Of a stretch of DNA of 64,000 bases, positions 1 to 54,339 are shown piece after piece. The DNA comes from a virus. The stretch spans positions 1-64,000 of the IMG/VR virus record IMGVR_UViG_3300024265_000041, one strand, 5' to 3'. How positions within the stretch are numbered: the first letter of the stretch is position 1; the number at the start of each line of letters is the position of its first letter. The notes under the pieces are model-generated. The model had not been told where the DNA came from. It saw only the letters and a list, made by a program, of their open reading frames with translations, and did no database searches. The translations under genes and the position numbers were made by a program.

Positions 1-46
1 CCCCACAGAACCCCCCACAGAACCCCTCACAGAACCCCTCACAGAA
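1..46. repeat. Tandem 12-bp repeat
   Basis: Three full copies (11-22, 23-34, 35-46) and one partial copy (1-10) of a unit close to CCCCTCACAGAA. On the minus strand the array is the in-frame 3' part of a gene and encodes repeats of Gly-Ser-Val-Arg or Gly-Ser-Val-Gly. It continues past the left edge. Confidence 0.9.
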
Positions 47-234
47 TCCCAGGTTTTTAACAATTCAATGGCCTCAGCAATTGAAATTTCAGGCACTTCT
101 AGGGTCAAAGGATTTTTTGGAAACAAGGCTTTTTCTATATCAAACCCCAGTTCCCTCCTTTTCTCTTTACAAAGTTTTCTGATTTCCTTTTCACATGGAG
201 TTGGTAGAATTAAATCTAATAACTTTTTATTCAT
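1..234 (-). CDS. Hypothetical protein with GSVR/GSVG repeats (3' end outside window)
   Basis: Partial gene; 78 codons are visible and the stop lies beyond the left edge. It starts at ATG 234 behind a good AAGGAAAGG ribosome site. The first 60 residues are charged and ordinary (MNKKLLDLILPTPCEKEIRK...), followed by an abrupt four-residue repeat, GSVR GSVR GSVG GSVG, encoded by the 12-bp tandem DNA repeat. Phage proteins with short S-V-containing tandem repeats after a small N-terminal domain are common, but I know of no function for them. A perfect 12-bp palindrome lies 39 nt upstream of the start. The repeat number may vary between relatives by slippage (inference). Confidence 0.75.
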   Translation of the reverse strand, partial: MNKKLLDLILPTPCEKEIRKLCKEKRRELGFDIEKALFPKNPLTLEVPEISIAEAIELLKTWDSVRGSVRGSVGGSVG

Positions 235-2822: not shown

Positions 2823-2954
2823 CGCGCCGCCGATGTAACTGGCGGCGCGTAAAAATCGCCGACTAGTTTTGGGGTCCGGTCGGCGATAGCCAGTAGTGGC
2901 TATTTTATACGCCGGAATACTGAGCGGCGTATAAGATAACCGCCAATGAGGCGG
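2823..2954. repeat. Array of five consecutive hairpins
   Basis: Five non-identical stem-loops stand side by side: 2823-2831/2841-2849 (9 bp, 9-nt loop), 2855-2863/2879-2887 (9 bp), 2886-2892/2897-2903 (7 bp), 2905-2914/2925-2934 (10 bp) and 2940-2944/2950-2954 (5 bp). A weak sixth may lie at 2966-2976. On the minus strand the two leftmost stems are followed by TTTTTA and CTTTTACTTTT, so they could be terminators for the gene at 2999-3625. The others have no such tail. Confidence 0.85.
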
Positions 2955-2998
2955 GAAGGGGCCGCGCCAGTATGGCACGACCTATAGGGGGTATGAGG

Positions 2999-3625
2999 TT
3001 ATGCTGCCTTAACAGAAGGCTTTGCAGGGGTAACAGGCTTTGCGCTAGCCTGTAGTTTCAGGATACAGTCGGCCTGAGCGATGGGCAGTAGGCCAGAGAA
3101 CAACTCGATAATGGTATCTTCGACATTCAATTCTAAGGAGGACATAGATTGTTTGAGAGCGAAAATGCGGTCATCAAATTCAGAACCGGCTAGTTTGGCG
3201 AGGAACTTTGATTTTTCAGTTATGTTCTCGTATCGATTGCCACCGGCTGAATTTGTTGAGTTGTTTTGATTTGCAGCCTTACCTCCCTTAGCTTTTGCTA
3301 TGGCAGTGATTGAGCAAGTATTACCCTTCACTTTGGCGGATAGCTTTTTGTTTTTGTTGAATGCGTATTCACCAGATGCTAATAGACGATTGATGGCAGT
3401 TCTGGACGCGGCGAAATCTGCGGCTTTTTCCTGCTTAGTACCGGCGGATTTGGTGTGGGCTTTATAGACGGCAGTGACAAGATCGGTCGCCTGCTTGATC
3501 GTTGTGCAATGAGAGAAATATTCTGATACTTCGACTTTGAATTTCCTACATTCGAACTGAGTAGAGACGGCGAGCGCGGCGAGCGCTGCCACATGTTCAA
3601 CTAAATTGTATTTTTTAAGTGCCAT
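2999..3625 (-). CDS. Hypothetical protein, 208 aa
   Basis: ATG 3625 with AGGAA about 10 nt upstream, transcribed from the promoter at 3721-3749. The protein is Ala/Lys-rich and helical at the N-terminus (MALKKYNLVEHVAALAALAV). The middle is basic and Asn-rich (about residues 100-135), then comes an acidic helical segment (FDDRIFALKQSMSSLELNVE) and an Ala/Pro/Lys tail. The basic, low-complexity parts would suit a nucleic-acid-binding protein, but no helix-turn-helix is obvious. It is first in the leftward transcript and has an operator-like site in its leader, the usual place for an autoregulated early regulator. That is inference from position only. Confidence 0.8.
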   Translation of the reverse strand: MALKKYNLVEHVAALAALAVSTQFECRKFKVEVSEYFSHCTTIKQATDLVTAVYKAHTKSAGTKQEKAADFAASRTAINRLLASGEYAFNKNKKLSAKVKGNTCSITAIAKAKGGKAANQNNSTNSAGGNRYENITEKSKFLAKLAGSEFDDRIFALKQSMSSLELNVEDTIIELFSGLLPIAQADCILKLQASAKPVTPAKPSVKAA

Positions 3626-3652: not shown

Positions 3653-3672
3653 GTTTGTACATCTGTACGAAA
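3653..3672. promoter_or_regulatory. Operator-like palindrome, site 3
   Basis: GTTTGTACATCTGTACGAAA: right arm exact, left arm differs from the consensus at two of eight positions. It lies 28 nt upstream of the start at 3625 and downstream of the promoter at 3721-3749, where a bound protein would block elongation. Confidence 0.6.
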
Positions 3673-3720: not shown

Positions 3721-3749
3721 ATCTTACCAAGATAAGTAGTCTATGTCAA
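3721..3749 (-). promoter_or_regulatory. Leftward sigma70-type promoter
   Basis: On the minus strand TTGACA (3744-3749) is followed after 17 bp by TAAGAT (3721-3726). Transcription would begin near 3714 and read the gene at 2999-3625. The -35 lies in the repeated 13-bp element. Confidence 0.7.
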
Positions 3750-3956
3750 GTACATGTATATAGTCTATGTCAAGTTAGTTTGTATGTATATGATTTATAT
3801 AATGTTATATAGTTGTTAGTTTTCGTACGGTTGTACGAAACTGTTAATAGAGACCCCTACCACATCTTTATTTTCGGTTTTTTGGTACAGAGGTTGCACT
3901 AGGCAGCGCACGAACACCAGAAATATTTGAAATTAATGTTGTGGTCTATGTCAAGT
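3739..3956 (-). repeat. Three copies of the 13-bp element GTCTATGTCAAGT
   Basis: Exact copies at 3739-3751, 3763-3775 and 3944-3956, with a fourth at 54329-54341. Read leftward each is ACTTGACATAGAC, a perfect -35 with a conserved TAGAC extension. Only the first copy here has a good -10. The others may be weaker promoters or binding sites. Confidence 0.75.
3821..3840. promoter_or_regulatory. Operator-like palindrome, site 4
   Basis: TTTCGTACGGTTGTACGAAA: perfect 8-bp arms, 4-bp spacer. It lies in the divergent control region between the leftward and rightward operons, about 70 bp upstream of the leftward promoter. It could act on either direction. Confidence 0.75.
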
Positions 3957-4127: not shown

Positions 4128-4156
4128 TTGACATAGATAAGTATCCATGGCATTTT
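4128..4156 (+). promoter_or_regulatory. Candidate rightward promoter for the structural operon
   Basis: A perfect TTGACA (4128-4133) with the same TAGA extension as the leftward elements. At 17 bp the -10 is CATTTT, matching only three of six bases. The -35 is convincing and the -10 is not, so an activator may be required. It is the only promoter-like signal ahead of the first rightward gene. Confidence 0.45.
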
Positions 4157-12400: not shown

Positions 12401-12425
12401 AGGGCGGCTGATGCCGCCCTTTTTA
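12401..12425 (+). terminator. Intrinsic terminator after the capsid gene
   Basis: AGGGCGGC (12401-12408) and GCCGCCCT (12413-12420) around TGAT, followed by a run of T to 12424. A clear rho-independent terminator. Probably partial, since the essential neck and tail genes lie downstream without an evident new promoter. Confidence 0.93.
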
Positions 12426-37760: not shown

Positions 37761-40556
37761 ATGGCTACTGCAATAACCTATATAAAGTCAGTTACACAAT
37801 CAGGAAGTGATTCTGATGTTTCTACCCTGAACATTAACGTGCCTGCAGGAAGTGGCGCTTGTTTGGTAGTTTCTATAGCGGCAAAAGACACTAACATAAC
37901 TGTCAATAGCGTGGTATTCAACGGAAGCGAAACCTTTGATGAAGTAGGAGTTTCTAGAAACGGTAACGCTAGTTCTTTTTTATATATATTGAAATCCCCC
38001 TCAATAGATCTAACCGCAGATGTAGTTATTACAATGAGCGATTCCTCAAGACTAGTGACTGGGGTTTCTCTCTATAATGGCGTTGACCCAAATAGCCCAT
38101 TCAACGTAAGTTTTAACGCCCAATCTAACGGCACTGACAACAACCCAAGCCTACAAGTTACCCCTGACGACGGTAATTGGTATGTCGATAGTTTGTGTCA
38201 AGTTTCAGCAGGGCCAGACACTATAGACACCCATTCTCCAGGCACCTTAGTAACCAATCAAGCAGCCATAGGTGGAGGTACAGACACTAGGGTAGGATCC
38301 ATGTACTTTGCTTGTGACGGTACTCAAGTTAGCGCTAGTTACGGTATGTCTGGGTCTGATAACTGGGCTCTCCAAGCTACTGCTTTACGGGTACCTCAGG
38401 TAGCTAACCAAACAGTTTCAACTAACTCAGCATTTGATGCCGATACTATAGAATCTCTTACTCAGAGTTCTAACATAAATATAGCTGTTGCCCAAGTTTT
38501 TGAGACTAATCTTGCACAGCCGATTACTCTAGACAATGGGGCTCAAGGGGTCAATGTATTCCAGGTCACAGAAACTAATTTATCTCAAACCATTACTCCC
38601 TCAACTGGTAACGTAAACATAACTGTTTCTCAGTCCACTGAAAGTGATGCTTCCCAATCTGTAACAGCATTTTCTTCTATACCTATAACGGTAACTCAGG
38701 TCACAGAATCTAATTTAGCTCAGGTGATAACTCCGGTTGTTGGGAATACAAACATTACAGTGTCCCAGATATCAGAAACAGATTTATCTAGAACTCTTAC
38801 TATTTCAGCTGGGAACGTGAATGTGTCTTTGGCTCAATCTGTTGAGACTGACACTTCACAAATAGTAATCCCAGTCCAATCAACTAATGTTTCTGTTCTA
38901 CAGGTTACTGAAACAGATTTATCTCAAATCATTACTCCATTAGCTGGCAATGTTGATGTAACTTTAAACCAAAATTCTGAAACAGATTTATCTCAAACAC
39001 TCACCCCATTAGCTGGCAATGTTGATGTAACTTTAAATCAGATTTCTGAAACAGATTTATCTCAGGTTATTATTCCTATTCAATCAACTGTTGTTGCTGT
39101 TAGTCAAAGTTCTGAAACAAATTCATCTCAAATCATTACTCCATTAGCTGGAAATGTTGATGTAACTTTAAACCAGATTTCTGAAACAGATTTATCTCAA
39201 ACCCTCACCCCACTAGCTGGTAATGTTGATGTAACTTTAAACCAGATTTCTGAAACAGATTTATCTCAAACCCTCACCCCATTAACTGGTAATGTTGATG
39301 TAACTTTAAATCAGAATTTTGAGACAGATTTATCTCAGGTTATTATTCCTATTCAATCAATTGTTGTTGCGGTTAGTCAAAGTTCTGAAACAGATTTATC
39401 TCAAACCCTCACCCCACTAGCTGGTAATGTTGATGTAACTTTAAACCAGATTTCTGAAACAGATTTATCTCAACCCCTCACCCCTACTAGTAACATTAAT
39501 ATTTCTGTTGGTCAGGTTTTAGAAATAGATTTATCTCAGGATATTATCCCACTTGCTGGTAGCGTTGGTGTCACTTTAAGTCAGATTTCTGAAACTGATT
39601 TATCTCAAATCATTACTCCATTAGCTGGTAATGTTGATGTAACTTTAACCCAGAATTTTGAAACAGATTTATCTCAGATTATTACCCCTACTCAATCAAC
39701 TGTTGTTGCTGTTATCCAGGTTTCTGAAACTGACTTATCTCAGGTTATTAACCCATTTGAAGGTAATGTTGATGTTACTTTAAATCAGATTTCTGAAACA
39801 GATTTATCTCAAACTTTCACCTCCACTAGTAGCATTAATATTTCTGTTGGTCAGGGTTTAGAGACAGATTTATCTCAAACCTTCACCCCACTAGCTGGGA
39901 ATGTTGATGTAATTTTAAATCAGGTGTCTGAAACAGATTTATCTCAACCCCTCACCCTACTTGCTGGTAATATTGATATAGGTTTAAATCAGGTGTCTGA
40001 AACAGATACGTCACAGATTATTAACCCAACCCAATCATCTTTTGTTCCCCTTAATCAAATTACTGAAACAGATTTATCTCACGTTATTAACCCACTAGCT
40101 GGGAATGTTGATGTAATTTTAAATCAGGTGTCTGAAACAGATACGTCACAGATTGTTACCCAGGTAAATAACATTGACCTTTCTGTTGGGCAGGTCTCAG
40201 AATCAAATTCATCTCAAATAATTACACCATCTGCTGGCAATGTCGATATCTCTGTAACTCAGGTTGTCGAGGTTGACACTTCTAAGGCTATAGGAGTTTC
40301 AGCAGATGGGGTTATATCTGCTAATCAGGTTTTCGAGACAGATTTAGCCCAGCCAATAACAGTGGTGGTAGGTGGAATTAACATAAATGTTAACTTAGTC
40401 AATGAGATCGATTTGTCACAAGTAGTAACAGTTATACCTAGCAATATCCTTGCTGTAGGTCAGGCTTTAGAAGTAGAACTAGCTCAACCTATATCTCCTC
40501 TTATTTCAAGCTCTAGTCTGTTATATTATCAGACTATAATTAGATTAATGAGATAA
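37761..40556 (+). CDS. Large surface-type protein with about thirty 23-residue repeats
   Basis: 931 aa; ATG 37761. Residues 1-215 form a beta-sandwich-like domain with IVVSIAAKDTNITVNSVVFN-style strands. Residues about 240-915 are about 30 tandem repeats of 23 residues with a consensus near ISETDLSQTLTPLAGNVDV. The final 15 residues are hydrophobic. The central repeats are almost identical in DNA, a sign of recent copy-number change. Proteins with ETD(L/T)-type repeats occur in other phages without known role. A long repetitive rod on the particle or an exported adhesin are options. Confidence 0.85.
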   Translation: MATAITYIKSVTQSGSDSDVSTLNINVPAGSGACLVVSIAAKDTNITVNSVVFNGSETFDEVGVSRNGNASSFLYILKSPSIDLTADVVITMSDSSRLVTGVSLYNGVDPNSPFNVSFNAQSNGTDNNPSLQVTPDDGNWYVDSLCQVSAGPDTIDTHSPGTLVTNQAAIGGGTDTRVGSMYFACDGTQVSASYGMSGSDNWALQATALRVPQVANQTVSTNSAFDADTIESLTQSSNINIAVAQVFETNLAQPITLDNGAQGVNVFQVTETNLSQTITPSTGNVNITVSQSTESDASQSVTAFSSIPITVTQVTESNLAQVITPVVGNTNITVSQISETDLSRTLTISAGNVNVSLAQSVETDTSQIVIPVQSTNVSVLQVTETDLSQIITPLAGNVDVTLNQNSETDLSQTLTPLAGNVDVTLNQISETDLSQVIIPIQSTVVAVSQSSETNSSQIITPLAGNVDVTLNQISETDLSQTLTPLAGNVDVTLNQISETDLSQTLTPLTGNVDVTLNQNFETDLSQVIIPIQSIVVAVSQSSETDLSQTLTPLAGNVDVTLNQISETDLSQPLTPTSNINISVGQVLEIDLSQDIIPLAGSVGVTLSQISETDLSQIITPLAGNVDVTLTQNFETDLSQIITPTQSTVVAVIQVSETDLSQVINPFEGNVDVTLNQISETDLSQTFTSTSSINISVGQGLETDLSQTFTPLAGNVDVILNQVSETDLSQPLTLLAGNIDIGLNQVSETDTSQIINPTQSSFVPLNQITETDLSHVINPLAGNVDVILNQVSETDTSQIVTQVNNIDLSVGQVSESNSSQIITPSAGNVDISVTQVVEVDTSKAIGVSADGVISANQVFETDLAQPITVVVGGININVNLVNEIDLSQVVTVIPSNILAVGQALEVELAQPISPLISSSSLLYYQTIIRLMR
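38494..40494 (+). repeat. Coding tandem repeats of 69 bp
   Basis: About 30 units, each 23 codons. Units between about 38,930 and 39,480 differ at only a few bases, while those at both ends have drifted. This pattern points to expansion from the centre. Confidence 0.85.
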
Positions 40557-54309: not shown

Positions 54310-54339
54310 AATATTCCCATAGTGTATTGTCTATGTCAA
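54310..54339 (-). promoter_or_regulatory. Leftward promoter ahead of the 310-aa gene and polymerase
   Basis: TTGACA (54334-54339) on the minus strand with AATATT (54310-54315) after 18 bp. The -35 lies in the fourth copy of the 13-bp element. The three TTTACA units near 54260-54280 form a small repeat in the leader. Confidence 0.65.

Follow-up and report, generated by a model that had tools for sequence, protein, structure and literature searches.

The tR1 and tL1 elements of phage lambda are leaky terminators that set polarity within the early operons, and REP elements are hairpins that stabilise the 3′ ends of messages. Hairpin-rich RNAs can also act on RNA polymerase itself, as in the processive antitermination mediated by HK022 put and Bacillus EAR. 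The put RNAs are about 70 nt long and are composed of two stem-loops with bulges and internal loops and conserved bases, and putR follows its promoter at a distance of about 270 nt (PMC9378689). The literature on tandem phage terminators yielded nothing specific. The array characterized here is a row of hairpins packed between two early genes of a tailed phage.

The window analyzed, 64,000 nucleotides in length, corresponds to the first 64 kb of a virus record of 84,255 bases (G000). Both record ends, window positions 1–50 and G000 84170–84255, are formed by one 12-bp tandem repeat, CACAGAACCCCT, and it is therefore probable that the record covers nearly the whole genome, as a circular or permuted map broken at this repeat. 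The presence of terminase and portal, DNA polymerase A, SNF2-type helicase and SbcCD-like genes identified a tailed phage, whose genome layout resembles that of the Pseudomonas phages PMBT3 and Lana, with a terminase identity of ~35%. Other repeated sequences were observed in the window, such as 18 copies of a 69-bp tandem repeat at 38901–40142, within a 931-aa ORF that would code for a repetitive protein, and an inverted repeat of 29 bp (1640–1668 and 1811–1839; 97% complementary, 142 nt apart) containing ATGTAAGAAATGTAGTCGATTTAAG.

The array lies between two minus-strand ORFs, the 208-aa gene (2999–3625), which is the first of the minus-strand early block and has the array 3′ of its stop codon, and the 91-aa gene (2507–2782) downstream of the array. 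The 208-aa protein matched no PHROGs or Pfam family above the cut-off. Its gene is preceded on the minus strand by a σ70 promoter at 3721–3749 (TTGACA-17-TAAGAT), strong by sequence, and a search of the interval 2999–2782, between the 208-aa and 91-aa genes, revealed no promoter with 9/12 matches. Because the flanking genes are on the minus strand and the only clear promoter reads in that direction into the 208-aa gene, the simplest view of the array is as 3′ UTR of the 208-aa gene and, upon read-through, as leader of the 91-aa gene. Four copies of TTGACATAG were found in the divergent spacer, at 3741, 3765 and 3946 on the minus strand and at 4128 on the plus strand, and these are probable –35 boxes of the early and structural-gene promoters; more copies occur on the minus strand at 54331 and at G000 64379.

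The initial annotation described five adjacent hairpins at 2823–2954, which was borne out by folding, as both strands fold into exactly that row. H1 (2823–2849, minus) has a 9-bp stem and a 9-nt loop, with arms CGCGCCGCC and GGCGGCGCG, followed by CTTTTACTTTT on the minus strand, and H2 (2855–2887, minus) has a 9-bp stem and a 15-nt loop, with arms ATCGCCGAC and GTCGGCGAT, followed by TTTTAC on the minus strand. H3 (2886–2903), which overlaps H2 by 2 nt and can form on either strand, has a 7-bp stem and a 4-nt loop (ATAGCCA gtag TGGCTAT), with TTTAT next to it on the plus strand and no U-tract on the minus strand. Similarly, H4 (2905–2934; TTATACGCCG gaatactgag CGGCGTATAA) can form on either strand with a 10-bp stem and a 10-nt loop; it has a U-tract on neither strand, and as plus-strand RNA its stem is longer and more stable, reaching 14 bp with one G-U pair. 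H5 (2940–2954, minus) is a weak terminator-like hairpin of 5 bp with a 5-nt loop (CCGCC tcatt GGCGG), followed by TTATCTTAT. To these five, the analysis added H6 (2960–2982, minus; GGTCGTGCCA tac TGGCGCGGCC), whose 10-bp stem, including two G-U pairs, is perfect only in the minus-strand RNA (–16.5 kcal/mol versus –8.5 kcal/mol on the plus strand) and has no U-tract, and a seventh hairpin, the palindrome at 2795–2814. The array stems are GC-rich and the loops are short, except for that of H2. The stems had been considered unrelated, which holds only in part, as H1, H2 and H4 have the CGCCG/CGGCG motif in common. On the minus strand, the claim that only two hairpins resemble terminators was roughly correct, the two being H2 and H1, and H5 a weaker third, while on the plus strand a T-run was found at H3 only. 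G-U pairs were indecisive as a cue to the strand, since H6 points to the minus strand and the outer pairs of H1, H2 and H4 to the plus strand.

The 132-nt array had a folding energy of –69.5 kcal/mol on the plus strand (z –6.35) and –63.3 kcal/mol on the minus strand (z –7.03), and none of 200 shuffles folded as low. Moreover, it was the minimum of a 132-nt window scan over the 84-kb genome (mean –24.5, sd 7.0). The array contains four stems of at least 7 bp, a number reached by 0 of 5000 dinucleotide shuffles, among which 4283 had no such stem, 688 had one, 28 had two and a single shuffle had three. No comparable array was found in the relatives (roughly 270 kb of sequence), where no 140-bp stretch exceeded three hairpins of at least 7 bp. 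Searches for tRNA, tmRNA and Rfam families gave no match. An 80-aa GTG frame on the minus strand (2978–2736) was rejected as a hidden gene, as it lacks a clear ribosome site and runs into the 91-aa gene. Hairpin promoters of the N4 type were also discarded, as no giant virion RNA polymerase was found among the ORFs and the array loops are too long.

Since the cores of H1–H4 are perfect palindromes without G-U pairs, the array could be read at the DNA level, as a replication origin, a packaging site or a series of palindromes bound by proteins; the strand composition flips sign near the control region and the terminase genes are 2–4 kb away. Nevertheless, the arms vary in sequence, spacing and loop length, with no common binding site besides CGCCG, the cumulative skew is lowest at the record ends and not at the array, the skew tracks gene direction, and H6 is fully paired only as RNA, so that a DNA-level role was regarded as very improbable. 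A repeat search of the genome with the full array returned only the self-match, and the other matches corresponded to the neighbouring palindrome at 2795–2814 (TTTCGTAC attt GTACGAAA), which is perfect on either strand and operator-like by sequence. Copies of TTTCGTAC-N4-GTACGAAA with exact arms were found at 665–684, 3821–3840 and G000 83972–83991, and copies with mismatches at 3653–3672 and G000 79758–79777, several of them placed 10–40 nt upstream of minus-strand gene starts. In relatives, this region has a different palindrome (AAACTCAGTGG-N2-CCACTGAGTTT in contig L005 and ACCCTTCGACATGTCGAAGGGT in contig L009), as if a phage regulator had changed specificity together with its sites. A second dispersed palindrome of the control regions, GTTTAGCTAAAC, was observed within a 23-bp direct repeat at 267–289 and 1019–1041.

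Terminator candidates were ranked over the 84-kb genome by means of a d'Aubenton-Carafa-type score. Among the minus-strand candidates of the whole genome, H1, H2 and H5 ranked second, third and fourth, all inside 132 bp, and the first place went to a strong plus-strand terminator, that at 12402, read in reverse. The scores of the array hairpins were moderate, with d of –11.0 for H5 on the minus strand, about –8 to –18 for H2, and –6.3 to about +21 for H1 depending on the treatment of the one-base spacer before its U-tract; on the plus strand, H3 ranked seventh (d –10.8). On the minus strand, a U-tract directly follows the stems of H2, H1 and, weakly, H5, and is absent at H3, H4 and H6. H2 and H1, which have real U-tracts, are the final two hairpins before the 91-aa gene, and the array follows the 208-aa gene immediately and on the same strand, a location at the 3′ end of a transcription unit. 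In addition, a GCCG/CGGC core (GCCGCC-type) is common to several array stems and to the best terminators of this phage, at 12402 and 54060. When the H4 stem was searched for in IMG/VR by exact match, nine unrelated single hairpins were retrieved, several of them between A/T-runs as in ordinary terminators, and no array.

These observations make it somewhat more probable than the opposite that the array is a stacked, leaky intrinsic terminator (attenuator) combined with a 3′-end stabiliser after the first early gene. RNA polymerase from the 3749–3721 promoter would transcribe the 208-aa gene and then, in this order, H6, H5 (weak), H4, H3, H2 (UUUU) and H1 (UUUUACUUUU). H2 or H1 would halt much of the polymerase traffic, and the remaining polymerase would go on to transcribe the 91-aa gene and the small genes that follow it, resulting in graded expression with the downstream genes turned down. 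H6, H4 and H3, which have no U-run in this direction, probably protect the 3′ end against exonucleases, and H3 may also halt antisense transcription. Several points stand against a stack of terminators: the scores are no more than moderate, H4 is more stable as plus-strand RNA, the array itself is not conserved, one good terminator would have sufficed, and termination alone leaves H3, H4 and H6 unexplained, as they have no T-runs on the coding strand.

These same three hairpins would fit a pure 3′ mRNA stabiliser or intercistronic processing element, which would block exonucleases and lengthen the life of the first-gene message with no termination. The equivalent gap of PMBT3 and Lana points in the same direction, as a single GC-rich hairpin without a U-run follows the first minus-strand early gene in both phages. 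However, this comparison is only positional, because no homology between the first genes of these phages and the 208-aa protein could be detected, and H1, H2 and H5 score near the top of all minus-strand terminator candidates genome-wide; a purely stabilising element was thus judged unlikely. The first proteins of PMBT3 and Lana (gp127 in Lana) were accordingly rejected as homologues of the 208-aa protein and retained as positional analogues. The hairpin of these two phages has an identical loop (TTGT on the plus strand, ACAA on the minus strand) and changed stems, and one gene (PMBT3) or two genes (Lana) further they have a common terminator, GGCCAGGCACG...CGTGCCTGGCC, with TTTTTT next on the minus strand. 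A leader hairpin was also observed upstream of the first early gene, at an aligned place in PMBT3, Lana and the Pseudomonas phage UAntarctica (L016 32333–32439, L019 44568–44680 and L029 5888–5975, respectively), with conserved flanks and different stems (AGG...CCTGTATCTAGT in PMBT3 and Lana). The differing stems are an apparent case of compensatory change, and the comparison suggests a wider habit of hairpins with fixed places and freely changing stems around the first early gene.

The relatives of this phage were surveyed in IMG/VR with the 208-aa protein, the terminase, the portal, the small terminase, the 208/257-aa alignment and the 91-aa protein as queries. Homologues were found only in L005 (also L030), in L009 and in one further contig (L006/L010/L013), and the array was present in none of them. 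Searches of phage DNA sequences gave no match, and the GTDB genomes supplied one MAG contig (L014), in which the 805 bp upstream of the terminase match are too short to include the region. L005 codes for a 257-aa homologue of the 208-aa protein (29% identical) and stops 47 bp past this gene, and those 47 bp show only a palindrome. L009 kept the gene order, with the small terminase, the divergent spacer, a minus-strand gene of 281 aa and small minus-strand genes; the 281-aa product has only some 10% identity with the 208-aa protein, the equivalence resting on gene order. The equivalent spacer (1188–1389 of L009), the one complete spacer among the relatives, has one palindrome and one clean minus-strand terminator, ACCGCTC attc GAGCGGT TTTTTC, and no array. 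This comparison shows that the position is kept and the array is not.

The initial annotation had related the array to structured non-coding RNAs and to decoy or multi-terminator elements, with no choice between them. The multi-terminator assignment was strengthened by the minus-strand ranking, the L009 terminator and the placement of the promoter only before the first gene, and the non-coding RNA assignment gained nothing, as neither an Rfam family nor an L009 counterpart was found. A structured RNA acting on RNA polymerase or a partner, for example in processive antitermination like that of HK022 put or Bacillus EAR, would suit the position behind a strong early promoter, within an early operon, as well as the several hairpins without U-runs. 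However, cmscan against Rfam, at the gathering score and at E up to 10, detected neither put nor EAR (for put, this is informative only if it is modelled in Rfam), the array stems are simple and perfect, without put-type bulges or internal loops, and the array is absent in L009 and ends in terminator-like hairpins, which makes this role quite unlikely. There is a slightly smaller chance that the hairpins form one functional phage RNA of an undescribed family that would modify RNA polymerase or bind a host RNA-binding factor (antitermination, sponge or anti-decay), the U-tract hairpins only marking its 3′ end.

Sequences on either side of the array could also pair for translational control. The Shine-Dalgarno tract of the 91-aa gene (GAGGTTAT, 2784–2791, minus) is exactly complementary over 8 bp to ATAACCTC at 2995–3002, which contains the stop codon of the 208-aa gene, and a match as good was found in about 0.2% of shuffled or random 30-mers (P about 0.002, found post hoc). 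With such pairing across the array, translation of the first gene would open the second. Besides its post hoc nature, the folding ensemble in a longer context favours pairing with 2955–2959, and inspection of L009 by eye revealed no equivalent, so that this coupling has a very low probability.

If the array is a graded terminator stack, the phage would set the ratio between its first early protein and the downstream genes by RNA hairpins alone, in a compact part for transcription control. Like lambda tR1 and tL1, it is placed after the first early gene behind a strong promoter, with no second promoter seen here; in contrast to them, neither an antiterminator protein nor a nut-like site was identified. 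The hairpins without U-runs between co-directional genes recall REP elements, which differ from the array in that the latter has U-tract hairpins alongside and no copies elsewhere in the genome. HK022 put and Bacillus EAR are likewise hairpin-rich RNAs found in operon leaders or intergenic regions, and they differ from the array in the lack of any sequence or Rfam match and, for put, in being formed by two bulged stem-loops. Tandem or stacked intrinsic (Rho-independent) terminators at phage gene ends have the GC-rich hairpins and T-tracts, the direction of the flanking genes and the placement at the end of a unit in common with the array, but they comprise one or two hairpins, whereas the array has five to six, half of them without a U-run. 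The function of the locus is probably familiar and ordinary, as is each hairpin type alone, and what is unusual compared with these systems is the packed row of six hairpins.
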